From NCBI GenBank assembly GCA_029262775.1, contig JAJCYR010000091.1, positions 124,001 to 188,000 on the forward strand: a stretch of 64,000 nucleotides of DNA, in the 5' to 3' direction. Below, one piece after another: positions 46,752 to 53,831 of this stretch. The translations under genes were made by a program, and so were the position numbers. A model generated the notes under the pieces. That model was not told where the DNA came from, did not search any database, and saw nothing but the letters and a program-made list of their open reading frames with translations. Positions within the stretch are counted from its first letter, which is position 1, and every line of letters starts with the position of its first letter. The stretch is from Bacteroidota bacterium. GTDB lineage: Bacteria > Bacteroidota > Rhodothermia > Rhodothermales > UBA10348.

Positions 46752-46925
46752 TGGCTGAGAAAAGTAGTCAGGCTTTCCAGCATCTGCTCCTGGGTGTGGA
46801 GTTGACCGTGGTTGTAACCATGGAACTCCACAAGGTGTACCTCCGCTGGCTCGCGGCCCGCTCCAACCCGTAACTCCTCCGTTCGAGAGGCCCAGATCAA
46901 CACCTGTGGGGTGGCGTAGTTGGGA
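46752..46925 (-). pseudogene. C-terminal remnant of an alpha/beta hydrolase
   Basis: Reading the minus strand from about 46925 gives TPQVLIWASRTEELRVGAG, then EVHLVEFHGYNHGQLHTQEQML and ESLTTFLSHSF. That is the end of an alpha/beta-hydrolase or S9-peptidase-like protein: the strand before the acid residue, the catalytic-histidine loop (GYNHG) and the last helix. The nucleophile part is absent, and no start codon with a signal is present. It overlaps the 3' end of the polytopic membrane protein in another frame. This is my identification by eye and has not been searched. Confidence 0.5.
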
Positions 46926-48120
46926 GACAAAGTGTGGCTACCAGCATACGGGTCATGGCAATGAGTGGAAGCAGGGCAATCCCGGCAACGACAGGGCCTG
47001 CCCAGGTCCCCCGCAGGCTCTCGGGCCAGAGCCCGGTCAGTAGGAAGAGGCTCATGAGGACGAGTATGATCGAGATCTGCAAGGTGGGCCAGCCGCGTGT
47101 CCATCTGCTGCCGAAGCGGTCGTGCACCGCGGCCACGAGGCCCGTTGTGACAATTCCGAGTAGCACCAGGTGGAGCCATGGAATGCGGAGTCCGGCCGTC
47201 AGGCCCCACGATGCGATCTGAGGAATGGCGAGTCCCACGTGTACGACAATTTTTACGTACATGAGCGTCACCGGCAATGTCCATACCCGGTGCAGTCGCG
47301 TACGAACCGTCCGCAGGACGAGCCACAGTCCAGCCACCGTAAGGAGCGCTCCCAAACTACCCACCAGCCGAAGAGCCCACGGAAGGCGTTCGGGCGCAAC
47401 CCCCAGTAGGAAAAGCGTGGGAATACCGGCCACAAGAAGCCAGAAGGCATGCCGGGGAATGGACCGGTGGGCCGAGCGGAGCATGGCCGCCAGGACGCTC
47501 AGCATGAGCCACCCCTCGGCGAATAAATCCAGGAAAACGTGCAGCGAAAGCTCGTACGCCAGCGAGTGGTCCAGCCCCATCGCCATGGTCATTCCGAGGC
47601 CCCATGCACCCATTGATGCGACGATGAGCAGCATCAGGGCGGCGTCGTGCATGTGGCGGACGTCGCGGCGAGGAATGCCGCCAGCGTCTTCCGCGGTCGA
47701 TGGCCCACCTTGTGGCGACAATTTCCCACGCCAGCGGTCCCGCAGGTACCGGATACCGAATGCGTACCAGGTCAGCATGGTGGAAGTCGAAAGCACGATA
47801 GAGAGGGGCTTGTAGCCCAGCAGCAGGAAGGGTGCCCAGGCCAGCACGGCCAGTACCAGAAGCACCATGATGTGGCGGCCGTACCTCGCCGGTTCAGGGA
47901 GCATGAGGAGCATGACAACGGGCGTCACCCACCCGAAGTACATGACGTGGGTATGTGCGTGCCGGATGTGGCCCATGTCGAGTGGTACGGCTCCTCCCGG
48001 CCACGGAAACTCGGCTGGAATGCCCAGAAACTGTATGCTGCGGAAAAAGAATCCGGTTCCGGCGGCCAGGATGAAACACGCGATGGCCCCCATCCACACG
48101 CGTTTTTCGACGGTGTACAT
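46897..48120 (-). CDS. Polytopic membrane protein of the nitrogen-oxide cluster
   Basis: From ATG 48120 the product is 407 residues with about eleven to twelve hydrophobic helices. Histidines cluster at helix ends (HIRHAHTHVMYFGW, MHDAALML, SLHVFLDLFAEGW), suggesting heme or copper ligands, as in NnrS- and heme-copper-related proteins, but I cannot assign a family. The start overlaps the stop of the upstream gene by one base (TGATG). It is the last gene of the leftward oxidoreductase unit. The C-terminus (PTTPPHRC) abuts the hydrolase remnant and may have been altered by the rearrangement. The frame to 48249 is open but overlaps the upstream gene. Confidence 0.75.
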   Translation of the reverse strand: MYTVEKRVWMGAIACFILAAGTGFFFRSIQFLGIPAEFPWPGGAVPLDMGHIRHAHTHVMYFGWVTPVVMLLMLPEPARYGRHIMVLLVLAVLAWAPFLLLGYKPLSIVLSTSTMLTWYAFGIRYLRDRWRGKLSPQGGPSTAEDAGGIPRRDVRHMHDAALMLLIVASMGAWGLGMTMAMGLDHSLAYELSLHVFLDLFAEGWLMLSVLAAMLRSAHRSIPRHAFWLLVAGIPTLFLLGVAPERLPWALRLVGSLGALLTVAGLWLVLRTVRTRLHRVWTLPVTLMYVKIVVHVGLAIPQIASWGLTAGLRIPWLHLVLLGIVTTGLVAAVHDRFGSRWTRGWPTLQISIILVLMSLFLLTGLWPESLRGTWAGPVVAGIALLPLIAMTRMLVATLCLPTTPPHRC

Positions 48121-48884
48121 CAGGGAATGGTCGCCACGTATTTGGTGTAACTGCGGATCACGTTGCCGCCGGGTGTCATGACCAGCACTTCGAACTGTTG
48201 TTGTCCGACCACGCGCGCCAGGTCCTGTTCCCGCAGCGTGAACGTCCACGGTGCCTCATCGAGGCGACTGAGCGGCTTTCCGGCTGTTTCAATTTCCAGC
48301 CGTCCTATCCCGTCCCCGGGACTCACCGTGCAGGTCAGGCGCGCGGCGTCCCGGTTCCTGCCGCAATCGAGTGTGGGGTTGACATCGACCTCGGGATTAC
48401 TGCTCGCAATCGTGCCAAATTCGAAGAGCACATGCTCGGGTGGATACAACCCGAACAGAATGACATGCACCATGAACACAAGGAAATTGACCAGCGAGAG
48501 GTGTTTGGCCAACCATTTCCCGGGGTTCGAATCGAAGCATCGTCTCATGTATGGCGTCACAATGGGGACGAGCAGCAAATGCGTAGTGGGACCCCAAATG
48601 ATGACCAGAAAGCCATACGCTGCAATGAACTGGACCCACGTCCATGAGGGCTCATAGGATAGCAGGAGGTTGCCTGCTGACCAACAGAAGAACCCGAACA
48701 GAAAAAGGGCTCCGCTTTTCATGAACCGCCAGGATGGCGTGCTGGCGTAGTAGAGGGCCTTGTAGGCCAGCCACAGGGATTTCAGGGCCCCGTGTTTCTT
48801 TCGCTGGCCTGGCTGGTGGCGAGGTTTGTTTCGGGGTCGGTCGACCGAGCGTTCAATATGCATGGACTGCTCAATGAACGTCAT
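48120..48884 (-). CDS. Membrane protein with C-terminal extracytoplasmic domain
   Basis: The 254-residue product has a basic N-terminal stretch, three to four hydrophobic helices (GALFLFGFFCWSAGNLLLSY, FIAAYGFLVIIWG, LVNFLVFMVHVILFGLYPP) and a C-terminal domain of about 100 residues that looks like an immunoglobulin-type sandwich (LTCTVSPGDGIGRLEIETAG, FEVLVMTPGG). No known family is recognised. It lies 7 bp after the heme-copper subunit I gene and is coupled to the next membrane protein, so it probably serves assembly or electron transfer in that complex. Confidence 0.7.
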   Translation of the reverse strand: MTFIEQSMHIERSVDRPRNKPRHQPGQRKKHGALKSLWLAYKALYYASTPSWRFMKSGALFLFGFFCWSAGNLLLSYEPSWTWVQFIAAYGFLVIIWGPTTHLLLVPIVTPYMRRCFDSNPGKWLAKHLSLVNFLVFMVHVILFGLYPPEHVLFEFGTIASSNPEVDVNPTLDCGRNRDAARLTCTVSPGDGIGRLEIETAGKPLSRLDEAPWTFTLREQDLARVVGQQQFEVLVMTPGGNVIRSYTKYVATIP

Positions 48885-48891
48885 TCTGTTG

Positions 48892-50598
48892 TTACCCGAT
48901 TTCCCACAGACGCGACAGCAGGTACCAGTTCAGTATGTAGGCAATCACGAACACGGCCAGGAAAATGAGTGTGAACATGAATGTGCCTCGCATGGACTGC
49001 AGGTGTACGGGGTTTCCGTCACCGTGCCAGGAATGGAGCGGTCTGAATACGGTCGATGGTTCGAGTTTCCGACCGAAGAGCAGCGATCCGACGGAGATAA
49101 CGGCGAACAGGATGCCCCCAACGATAGCCAACAGCGCCGCAATACCGAATATTACGAAAAGAGGCTCCGCAGCCGCGAAGTTGAAGTCCGTGCCCGGGAT
49201 GTTCATGACCGACGGATGACGCCGCGGAATGCCGTACAGGATTCCGAGGTACATCATCATGAGTGTGGCCAGTGCCATGAATCCGGAATAGAACCAGGGC
49301 TGGATACGGGCGAGGGGTGCCAGGATCAGCTCCTTCTTGAACATGGTCTGGATGACAAAAAACACCAGCCCCATGAACGTCATGGTGGTTCCAAGCACGA
49401 CCGTGGCATGGAAGTGGCCCACCGTGGCCCACGTGTTGTGCCAGGCCAGGTTGAGCTGCATTTGACCCATCAGAACCCCCGTAATGCCTCCCATGAAGCC
49501 AAACAGCACGATGGAGAAGATGACGGCCGAGAACACCGGGTTGCTCCAGGGTGCCGACCATAGCCATCCGAACAGGCTCTTACCGGCACCCCGCTTGCGG
49601 CGACCTGCTTCAAGACCGGCTGGAATGGCGAACGCATGGATCATGCTTGCCAGCACGGCGCCATAGACCGCGTAGGACGTATTCCACACCTTCCAACTGG
49701 CGGCAAGCGCGGGGTCGGCCATGAGGTGGTGTGCGGCGCCCATGTTGATGAAGAAGAGATACAGAATGAAGGCGGAGCGCGAGACTTTCTCACTCACCAC
49801 CTCGGCGCCGCCCACCACGTGGGTCAGGAAGTACCATACCGTGATCATCGCGGCAAGATTGATCTGCTGGGTTCCATGACCAATGATCCAATACATCTGT
49901 CGGTACCAGGCGGCATCGATGTGCTCGAGCAGACCAATCCGCCACATATACGTCGGAACGTAGGTGATCAATCCACCCAGGAGTGCCTCCACGGCGATGA
50001 TGGCCGTAATGAAGGCGCCAAACGCAACGAGTGGTAGACTTTTGTTCGGATGCTGGATTTTTTCCTGCCAAATGGCGACAAAGAAGGGCAGGGCTGCAAT
50101 CACCGTACCCAGAATGAAGACAATGACGCCGAGATAAAACCATTCAGAGGACGGCAGTGGCGCATACGATGTCAGGACGGGCGCATGATCCGGGGCCGAC
50201 GTCGTCATGATGGCCCAGTTGATTGCAACGGCCGAGCCGAGCATGAGCACATAACCGATCAAGGCGAGCTTTGGAGCGGGTAACCTGCGTCCCAGCACCA
50301 TAGGACCGCCCACATACAGGATGGCCACTTCCATGAAGACCATCCAGAAGATGAGCAGATTCCATGCGTGCACGCTGAGCCAATTGTAGAAGGAGGCGGG
50401 CTGCAGCAGTCCGACCACTTCCCAGCGGGTCAGCACGACAAGGATCGCGGAAAGCCCTCCCAGTACGAGGGCGACAACGGCCGTCAGGCCGAATATCTTG
50501 ACGAAGTTCTCGGCCGTGCGGTCAATTTTCATGCCCGTCACGGAGCAGGTGCGAAATCCGTCAGGCCCGTAGTCGTTGGTAAACAGTTCTTTGATCAT
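48892..50598 (-). CDS. Heme-copper oxidoreductase subunit I, probable NO reductase
   Basis: The 568-residue protein has about fourteen helices and all metal-binding histidines: low-spin heme ligands H77 and H397, high-spin heme ligand H395 (GHFHATVV), CuB ligands H241, H290 and H291 (MGAAHHLMADP). In oxygen reductases the helix-VI motif is H-P-x-V-Y, with a tyrosine cross-linked to the histidine; here it is GHGTQQI, so Q245 replaces the tyrosine. This loss is characteristic of NO reductases, and its B-family appearance with a CuA subunit II suggests an eNOR-like enzyme reducing NO to N2O at the inner membrane. I recall such an enzyme being described from Rhodothermus. Reclassification needs alignment. 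It follows subunit II by 3 bp. Confidence 0.82.
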   Translation of the reverse strand: MIKELFTNDYGPDGFRTCSVTGMKIDRTAENFVKIFGLTAVVALVLGGLSAILVVLTRWEVVGLLQPASFYNWLSVHAWNLLIFWMVFMEVAILYVGGPMVLGRRLPAPKLALIGYVLMLGSAVAINWAIMTTSAPDHAPVLTSYAPLPSSEWFYLGVIVFILGTVIAALPFFVAIWQEKIQHPNKSLPLVAFGAFITAIIAVEALLGGLITYVPTYMWRIGLLEHIDAAWYRQMYWIIGHGTQQINLAAMITVWYFLTHVVGGAEVVSEKVSRSAFILYLFFINMGAAHHLMADPALAASWKVWNTSYAVYGAVLASMIHAFAIPAGLEAGRRKRGAGKSLFGWLWSAPWSNPVFSAVIFSIVLFGFMGGITGVLMGQMQLNLAWHNTWATVGHFHATVVLGTTMTFMGLVFFVIQTMFKKELILAPLARIQPWFYSGFMALATLMMMYLGILYGIPRRHPSVMNIPGTDFNFAAAEPLFVIFGIAALLAIVGGILFAVISVGSLLFGRKLEPSTVFRPLHSWHGDGNPVHLQSMRGTFMFTLIFLAVFVIAYILNWYLLSRLWEIG

Positions 50599-50601
50599 GG
50601 G

Positions 50602-51141
50602 TTACCTCCGCACGATGAATGAGCCGTGCATGGTCCGATGGCCGACACCACAGAATTCGTTGCAGACCACGTGATACACGCCCGGTTCGTCGAACTTCAT
50701 GGGCAGGACCCATTCGTAATCGGGCAGGAGTTGAAGCGACATCTGCTTGCTGAGCGCATGTTCGGGCCGGATGGAGAGTCCGTGCTGTACATCATAGCTG
50801 CTCATGTGCACCTGGTACTGCTTTCCGGCTTCGAGTACGACAGGAAATCCGTCGAACGAAAATCGTGCCGCCGCTACATATACATGCTCGTCGGCAGGGA
50901 TGATACCGTCTTCCGTCTGCGTACCGGCCTTCTTGAAATCCTGCACCTTCTGCATGAACTCGGCCGTGGAGACGCGGTAGGTCGGTCCGGCCTGGTTCTG
51001 CTTGCCATAGGAGGCCCACACGATCATGGATGCGAACAGGAGAAGGCACCAGACAACACTGATCCGGATCCAGGTCTTTTCGAGCACCGATACGCCTGCA
51101 ATCCACCAGTTGCCCTGGGGGGAGTGAAGTGGTGAGCTCAT
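50602..51141 (-). CDS. Heme-copper oxidoreductase subunit II with CuA site
   Basis: The 179-residue protein has one N-terminal membrane helix (VVWCLLLFASMIVWASYG) and a cupredoxin domain in the periplasm. The CuA ligands are complete: a histidine in DVQHGLSI, then CNEFCGVGHRTM giving both cysteines, the second histidine and the methionine. It should accept electrons from cytochrome c and pass them to subunit I. I start at ATG 51141, preceded by a strong GGAGGT site; the frame back to 51186 lies inside the small upstream gene. It overlaps nothing and is separated from that gene's stop by 2 bp. Confidence 0.9.
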   Translation of the reverse strand: MSSPLHSPQGNWWIAGVSVLEKTWIRISVVWCLLLFASMIVWASYGKQNQAGPTYRVSTAEFMQKVQDFKKAGTQTEDGIIPADEHVYVAAARFSFDGFPVVLEAGKQYQVHMSSYDVQHGLSIRPEHALSKQMSLQLLPDYEWVLPMKFDEPGVYHVVCNEFCGVGHRTMHGSFIVRR

Positions 51142-51143
51142 GA

Positions 51144-51302
51144 TCAACCTCCAGTAGGGATAGTGAGAATATCGACGAGCCCCCACACGATGTAGGAGAG
51201 CACGAAGAACACGATGGCCGCGCCGGCAAGGAGCCAGATACTGTCAAAGAGCTCGACCTGCCAGGGGCGTTCGTTTTCCGGCGATTCAAAGGGTTCAGAC
51301 AT
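51144..51302 (-). CDS. Small single-helix subunit of the heme-copper complex
   Basis: This 52-residue frame starts at ATG 51300-51302 and ends with TGA two bases before the subunit II ATG. The product has an acidic N-terminus (MSEPFESPENERP) and one membrane helix, LLAGAAIVFFVLSYIVWGLVDIL. Small one-helix subunits are usual companions of B-family heme-copper oxidases. It is the first gene of the leftward unit, and the GGAGGT for subunit II lies in its last codons, so it is very likely translated. It is too short to appear among long open frames and is easy to miss. Confidence 0.75.
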   Translation of the reverse strand: MSEPFESPENERPWQVELFDSIWLLAGAAIVFFVLSYIVWGLVDILTIPTGG

Positions 51303-51344: not shown

Positions 51345-51400
51345 TGTATTATATACAAAAGAGTATTAAGTCTTTATATAATTCATGCGAAAAATGGATT
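51345..51400. promoter_or_regulatory. Divergent control region with two inverted repeats
   Basis: Between the leftward reductase unit (start 51302) and nirK (51524) is an AT-rich stretch unlike its surroundings. TGTATTATATACA (51345-51357) is a near palindrome with a TATAAT -10-like box on the minus strand. AATTCAT (51380-51386) and ATGGATT (51394-51400) form a 7-bp inverted repeat with one mismatch and a 7-bp spacer. These are candidate operators for a NO- or oxygen-responsive regulator. Neither matches the NsrR or FNR consensus I know. Confidence 0.4.
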
Positions 51401-52961: not shown

Positions 52962-53333
52962 ATGCCGCTCCTGAGCAGGCTCTTCATCAAAACCGCGTTC
53001 ATTCACCTGTTCGCCGGTCTTGTCATGGGCGTCTTCTGGTCCCATCCGGCCGTATTCCACGTGCTCACGGTCGGATGGCTGACCCAGCTCATTTTCGGCG
53101 TGGCCTACTGGCTGTTCCCGCGGTACTCGAAGGAATCTCCCTACGGCCATCACCACTTGGTGGGTGCGGCCTGGGGGCTTCTCAACGCCGGGCTTATACT
53201 GCGCATTCCGTCTGAGCCTCGGGCCCACATCGACCCCTGGGGAAGTCTGCTCGTGGCCTCATCGCTACTTCAGGCAACCGCCGCAGCGCTGCTGGTCGTC
53301 TACTTCTGGAGCCGCGTCAAAACCCGCAGATAA
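52962..53333 (+). CDS. Small four-helix membrane protein, NirK-linked
   Basis: The 123-residue protein has about four membrane helices with histidines near their ends. The block FHVLTVGWLTQLIFGVAYWLFPR is shared in form with the next gene (H-x6-G-W/F-x2-Q, then GVAxWxxPR), so the two are paralogues. HPAVFH and GHHHLVG add possible metal ligands. The pattern recalls truncated heme-copper-oxidase-like or NnrS-like proteins, but no catalytic set is complete. It follows nirK by 28 bp. Confidence 0.75.
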   Translation: MPLLSRLFIKTAFIHLFAGLVMGVFWSHPAVFHVLTVGWLTQLIFGVAYWLFPRYSKESPYGHHHLVGAAWGLLNAGLILRIPSEPRAHIDPWGSLLVASSLLQATAAALLVVYFWSRVKTRR

Positions 53334-53345
53334 CGCCTTCCCGCC

Positions 53346-53831
53346 ATGCCACAGCATAGTGTTTTGCTTGTGCGATGCGCACTCCTGTGGTTCATGACCG
53401 GCGTACTGCTCGGAGTAGCCATGCTCTTCGAGCGCTCCGGTCTGGCCAGTGGCAACTGGCTTTCCGGCGGCGACTGGAGCGGCATCTGGATGCTTCGCCC
53501 CTCCCATGCCTGGATCATGCTGACGGGCTTTATGATCCAACTCGCGCTCGGCGTAGCACTCTGGATCCTTCCGCGGAACCGGCGACGCGCAGGACTGGGG
53601 AAAGCGATCCTCCTCTCGGCCACGGCGGCGCTCAATCTGGGTGTCGTCGTCGTTGCCGCCGCACCGCTTGTGGCAGGAGAGCCCGGCGCGGACGAGCTCC
53701 TGAATGGTTTCCGAGTGGCCGGAATGGCGCTTCAGATGGCGGGCATCGGGGTGCTCGTCCGCGCCGTGTGGCCACGTATCCAGTCCGCTGACGCCATCCG
53801 GAGCGGTCTCAACCGGAAAGGGGAAGCGTAA
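53346..53831 (+). CDS. Small four-helix membrane protein, paralogue of upstream gene
   Basis: The 161-residue product has about four helices and contains SHAWIMLTGFMIQLALGVALW followed by ILPRN, matching the motif of the preceding gene. It lacks that protein's HHH cluster. It starts 12 bp after it and ends convergently inside the last 23 bp of the sensor kinase gene. A role in NirK maturation, electron delivery or NO handling is inferred from position only. Confidence 0.75.
   Translation: MPQHSVLLVRCALLWFMTGVLLGVAMLFERSGLASGNWLSGGDWSGIWMLRPSHAWIMLTGFMIQLALGVALWILPRNRRRAGLGKAILLSATAALNLGVVVVAAAPLVAGEPGADELLNGFRVAGMALQMAGIGVLVRAVWPRIQSADAIRSGLNRKGEA

Follow-up and report, generated by a model that had tools for sequence, protein, structure and literature searches.

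A predicted eNOR-type nitric oxide reductase and its companion membrane protein next to nirK in a Rhodothermota genome

Gene content of the locus

The window, i.e., the whole stretch of 64,000 nucleotides analyzed here, comes from a MAG that is about 95% complete. It carries genes assigned to an eNOR, a B-family-derived heme-copper NO reductase, and a copper nitrite reductase gene on the opposite strand. The features are listed below by their positions in the window.

46897-48120, minus strand: orf450, a polytopic membrane protein that closes the apparent operon and was found in congeners only
48120-48884, minus strand: orf254, an eNOR-associated membrane protein encoded 7 nt downstream of subunit I
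48892-50598, minus strand: subunit I, the catalytic heme-copper subunit assigned to eNOR (COX1 Pfam match, six His, Q244-Q245, eNOR clade)
50602-51141, minus strand: subunit II, with one TM helix and a CuA cupredoxin domain (CNEFCGVGHRTM plus an upstream His)
51144-51302, minus strand: small subunit candidate of 52 aa with a single TM helix (MSEPFESPENERPWQVELFDSIWLLAGAAIVFFVLSYIVWGLVDILTIPTGG); a similar ORF is present at most eNOR loci
51347-51385, strand unspecified: 39-bp conserved block in the nirK/eNOR intergenic region (TATTATATACAAAAGAGTATTAAGTCTTTATATAATTCA), identical in the relative L027
51428-52933, plus strand: nirK, encoding a Cu nitrite reductase with a cytochrome c domain fused to its C-terminus (TIGR02376 and Cytochrom_C matches)
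52962-53333, plus strand: short membrane protein after nirK, possibly heme-binding and NO-related (COX1-like Pfam match of 16 bits, under the cut-off)
53346-53831, plus strand: short membrane protein after nirK, also possibly heme-binding and NO-related (COX1-like Pfam match of 28 bits, under the cut-off)

The five minus-strand genes are arranged head to tail in the order of the 52-aa protein, subunit II, subunit I, orf254, and orf450. Neighboring genes in this run are separated by 2 to 7 bases, except for orf254 and orf450, where the stop of the former and the ATG of the latter (at 48120) overlap by one base; with this spacing, the five genes likely form an operon. The subunit I ORF is intact (568 aa) and matches the COX1 Pfam family at 172 bits (E = 1.9e-50). 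Immediately upstream, the cupredoxin subunit II gene starts with an ATG at 51141. The CoxB/NosZ cupredoxin matches of its product are weak. The CuA ligand set is complete, as stated in a preliminary description of this DNA, and in the examined loci, eNOR subunit I is accompanied by an adjacent homologous subunit II. The 52-aa ORF falls inside the range covered by that description (48892-51302) and was left unnamed there. Short ORFs with a Y..WG..[DE]-type motif are found just upstream of subunit II at most eNOR loci, both archaeal and bacterial; loci for ba3-type O2 reductases also have short ORFs, but without this motif. At the other end of the apparent operon, orf450 encodes about 407 aa, is 71–75% identical in two relatives, and gave no match in a Pfam search. 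Among the loci examined, it was found in congeners only and not at the Rhodothermus loci, including that of R. marinus. The orf450 protein also carries a His-rich helix.

On the plus strand, a complete nirK gene is adjacent to the eNOR genes and transcribed divergently from them. The preliminary description spoke of a "divergent nirK," which is correct for orientation; divergence in sequence is ruled out because NirK scores 360 bits against TIGR02376 (cut-off 296 bits). The C-terminus of NirK has a Cytochrom_C match (E = 3.4e-12), and the true start of the gene is probably further in than 51428. The 39-bp block between the two transcription units is unchanged in L027 although its flanks have diverged, and is a candidate for a shared promoter or regulatory site. 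Within the window, no FNR-like TTGAT-N4-ATCAA, TTGAC-N4-GTCAA, or NsrR-like ATGTATTT-N-AAATACAT sequences were found. Homologs of the two short membrane proteins after nirK adjoin eNOR in Salinivenus (L028).

Active site and family placement of subunit I

Subunit I was aligned with the Thermus thermophilus ba3 enzyme (1xme; the structure chain numbering is canonical + 6) and with the aa3 and cbb3 homologs from the same genome. All six canonical heme and CuB histidines noted in the preliminary description are kept. By alignment to ba3, H77 and H397 are the low-spin heme ligands, H395 is the active-site heme ligand, and H241, H290, and H291 are the CuB ligands. The helix VI motif is G240-H241-G-T-Q244-Q245-I (GHGTQQI), in which the V236-Y237 pair of ba3 is replaced by Q244-Q245. 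The site of the cross-linked Tyr that characterizes B-family O2 reductases is accordingly occupied by Gln245, and the alignment bears out this earlier reading. A Tyr supplied from helix VII, as in C-family (cbb3) oxidases, is ruled out by I284 at the corresponding position in the alignment with ba3 and the own-genome cbb3. The Gln-Gln pair is present in 91/91 homologs, whereas Val-Tyr is present in 16/16 B-family O2 reductases. Given this conservation and the E-value of the COX1 match, the motif is not a chance occurrence. Further eNOR-specific invariants among the 91 aligned sequences are E90 (A85 in ba3), N247, Y280, N306, Y309, and H321. Y256, S318, and E330 are also invariant, and the invariant H321 replaces the equivalent of ba3 T312. 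Of these residues, Y256, S318, H321, and E330 align with the K-channel region of ba3, in which Y248 and S309 have equivalents in the window protein. The two enzymes further share the fold and CuA.

The residue at the Tyr position differs among families, being Y in O2 reductases, E in cNOR and qNOR, N in sNOR and CuANOR, and D in gNOR (PMC8756737). Gln at this position is diagnostic for eNOR subunit I (PMC8756737, Table A4), and one predicted proton channel is listed for eNOR in the same paper. In the window protein, neither the N of sNOR/CuANOR (bNOR) nor the D of gNOR is present at this site. The traits of cNOR and qNOR, i.e., a Glu at the Tyr site together with a NorC heme c subunit or a fused quinol form, are likewise missing, with Q245 and a CuA subunit II found instead; the best solved relatives of subunit I belong to the B-family, not to cNOR/qNOR.

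The phylogeny is a quick IQ-TREE analysis with SH-aLRT support, based on 106 rows (91 eNOR and 15 B-family sequences) without reference sNOR, gNOR, bNOR, or nNOR sequences. Its eNOR references are Gln-bearing sequences and sequences from the same genera as the described eNORs, not the exact accessions of the papers. The eNOR and B-family rows are split at a support of 100, which rules out clustering of subunit I with O2 reductases. Another clade, with a support of 100, unites the window protein and those of two congeners with Salinivenus, Rhodothermus, 44 haloarchaeal sequences, and a single bacterial MAG of unassigned affiliation; the nearest groups to the window subunit I are Salinivenus, Rhodothermus, and haloarchaea. 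The haloarchaeal eNORs are nested among Rhodothermota lineages in this tree, for which long-branch warnings were given, and this pattern suggests that eNOR was transferred between the two groups. Named Rhodothermus MAGs have a subunit I that is 71–72% identical to that of the window, and a second eNOR type (about 41% identical) is present in other genera of the window's family-level group.

Based on the diagnostic Gln and the tree placement, the subunit I locus is an eNOR, a member of a family that has already been described, in agreement with the B-family-derived NO reductase proposed in the preliminary description; NO reduction itself is taken from the family. The expectation that annotation pipelines would mistake such genes for cytochrome c oxidase also proved correct, as the Thermus, Thermomicrobium, and Defluviimonas eNORs are annotated as "cbb3-type cytochrome c oxidase subunit I." With eNORs routinely labelled in this way, organisms that make N2O, a greenhouse gas, are overlooked.

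Other bacterial eNORs (Thermus, Verrucomicrobiota, Myxococcota, Rhodobacteraceae, and others) share the Gln-Gln site, CuA, and the small TM ORF with the window, but are only 39–47% identical and orf254 was not found at their loci. Some also differ in one low-spin heme ligand. The His corresponding to H397 is a Lys (GHFKGTV) in five eNOR loci (L078, L091, L101, L102, and L107), including one on a T. thermophilus plasmid and some in Bacteroidota and Aquificota MAGs, and the tree places the Thermus copy away from the remaining four. This substitution implies His/Lys coordination of the low-spin heme; no pertinent report of such a Lys-ligated heme in eNOR was found in literature searches. In addition, an otherwise conserved helix X His (H387 in the window, HNT motif) is V or Q in the haloarchaeal loci L041, L043, L044, L057, and L072.

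Predicted role in a nitrite-to-N2 chain

The full-length heme-copper oxidoreductases found in the MAG are aa3, cbb3, and eNOR. As the former two are the only other full-length heme-copper oxidases found, there is no cNOR or qNOR, and no other NO reductase was found in the MAG. A clade II nosZ is located on contig C51. No match to narG or napA was found in this roughly 95% complete MAG, such that nitrate reduction is not supported. The nitrite-to-N2 gene set of this Rhodothermota genome rests on eNOR, the sole NO reductase found. The contig that bears the window (G000:C91, 233,570 bp; the window is C91:45571-109570) is an inverted repeat, with perfect reverse complementarity at its ends, across its centre (over the 13,570 bp checked), and between two gene regions. 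This structure is almost surely an assembly artefact by which gene counts in the MAG are inflated. The second eNOR copy is part of the exact mirror image within the contig, which rules out a paralog.

We are highly confident that the locus encodes an eNOR, whose predicted mode of action is as follows. Most likely, the enzyme reduces NO to N2O within a nitrite-to-N2 chain, as expected from its family. NO would be made by the divergently encoded NirK, and the NosZ encoded elsewhere in the genome would remove N2O. A cytochrome c, plausibly shared with NirK, would deliver electrons to the CuA of subunit II, from which they would travel by way of the low-spin heme (H77/H397) to the site formed by the H395-ligated heme and CuB (H241, H290, and H291). 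Two NO molecules would be coupled to N2O at this site, where the Tyr needed by O2 reductases for O2 splitting is replaced by Gln245 and the eNOR-specific Gln244 takes the place of Val. The position of Y256, S318, H321, and E330 in the K-channel region makes proton uptake from the cytoplasm plausible, and this K-channel-like set could render the reaction electrogenic. Because CuA, the hemes, and much of the K-channel are common to eNOR and O2 reductases, the enzyme may also carry out minor O2 reduction. A passage in PMC11388526 that cites Murali et al. (2024) refers to eNOR as biochemically characterized.

The distribution of nirK bears on whether the enzyme serves respiratory denitrification or, as an alternative that we regard as rather unlikely, mainly NO detoxification. 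Among 60 genomes, nirK is present in 10/11 with eNOR compared to 8/49 without (p = 5e-6); because the species are related, the figures by genus are the better ones (5/6 vs. 3/27, p = 0.001). This association has exceptions that suit detoxification. Eight of the 18 nirK-bearing genomes in this set have no eNOR, and in the relative G010, eNOR is present but nirK is not, so detoxification may be a further role of the enzyme. Furthermore, genes for an Rrf2 regulator and a DUF542 protein, both of which are associated with NO stress, are located near the Thermus eNOR. However, the divergent pairing of eNOR with nirK and the presence of nosZ in the genome speak for respiratory denitrification, and the retention of CuA and of putative proton-channel residues would suit energy conservation.

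Far less probable is a ba3-like O2 reductase of the B-family whose unusual active site can dispense with the cross-linked Tyr. The best solved-structure relatives of subunit I are indeed those of T. thermophilus ba3 (E about 1e-35), and ba3 resembles the window enzyme in having a CuA subunit II and counterparts of Y256 and S318 in the K-channel. Nevertheless, the replacement of Val-Tyr by Gln-Gln is invariant across a clade that is separate from the B-family, nirK is adjacent to and associated with eNOR, and O2 is already served by aa3 and cbb3. Least credible is another B-family-derived NO reductase (sNOR, bNOR/CuANOR, gNOR, or nNOR), since, although B-family-related NO reductases have been described and several have cupredoxin subunits (PMC8756737, PMC11388526), the N of sNOR/CuANOR and the D of gNOR (PMC8756737, Table A4) contrast with the Q found here, and the window protein groups with Rhodothermus, Thermus, haloarchaea (including Natronomonas), and Chloroflexota, i.e., the taxa in which eNOR was described.

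Distribution of orf254 and comparison with related loci

In the predicted structure of orf254 (mean pLDDT 86), helices at the N-terminus are followed by a beta domain at the C-terminus. C174 and C185 are invariant and could form a disulfide at the outer face of the membrane. Assignment to a known family was rejected, as the window protein has no Pfam family and 7 of its 26 relatives have weak bacterial Ig (Big_7) matches. Foldseek returned Ig/FnIII-like matches only, and given their low TM-scores, the function is not identified by fold.

Within the Rhodothermota-haloarchaea eNOR group, orf254 follows subunit I in 49 of the 51 loci with enough sequence; the two exceptions, L071 and L075, branch deepest in the group. 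At the 31 other eNOR loci, no tblastn match to orf254 was found, and 30 of these have room for the gene. The same linkage is seen at the level of genomes. Among the relatives, orf254 is present in 5/5 genomes with the window's eNOR type and in 0/6 with the other type. Among 146 haloarchaeal genomes, eNOR is present in 28, orf254 in 28, and both in 27 (Fisher p = 4e-27, uncorrected for kinship). The exceptions are G141, which has eNOR and no orf254 match, and G105, which has a broken orf254 without eNOR (C2:672401-672878). Another partial match was found in G028 (C1:164317-164676, L123), which is from the same genus as R. marinus and also has no eNOR. These fragments in G028 and G105 look like remnants left after loss of the eNOR operon.

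Taken together, we propose that orf254 most likely serves eNOR in a dedicated role, either as an accessory subunit or in assembly. Its Ig-like domain is probably exposed at the outer face of the membrane, where it may dock the electron donor or help CuA or heme assembly. We lean toward the view that the eNORs of the Rhodothermota-haloarchaeal subclade have in orf254 a dedicated partner not described before, which moved with the enzyme between bacteria and archaea. As a near-obligate partner, it marks one eNOR subclade across the two domains. The literature searched, which did not extend to the main eNOR paper, held no description of orf254 or of any eNOR accessory protein; the orf254 link is the sole part of this analysis beyond the published work found, and its novelty is provisional.

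The R. marinus locus (G042, taken as R. marinus DSM 4252) resembles that of the window in its subunit I (71% identical), the GHG[ST]QQINLAAM site, the CuA subunit II (62%), the small TM ORF, and an orf254 homolog downstream. However, the orf254 homologs are just 36% identical, and nirK is apart from eNOR in this genome (C1:1417 kb and C1:174 kb, respectively). The eNOR studied by Murali and co-workers in 2024 reportedly came from R. marinus, and orf254 offers a concrete protein for testing in that system.

The haloarchaeal eNORs (Natronomonas, Natrinema, Halorubrum, and others) belong to a different domain of life, yet their subunit I is 61–68% identical to that of the window, falls in the same clade, and has the orf254 partner. 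One haloarchaeal locus differs from the window in having a UbiA/heme O synthase-like gene between eNOR subunit I and orf254 (L031:7753-8802). A gap of similar size separates these two genes in eight other loci, and this arrangement suggests a modified heme for the enzyme.
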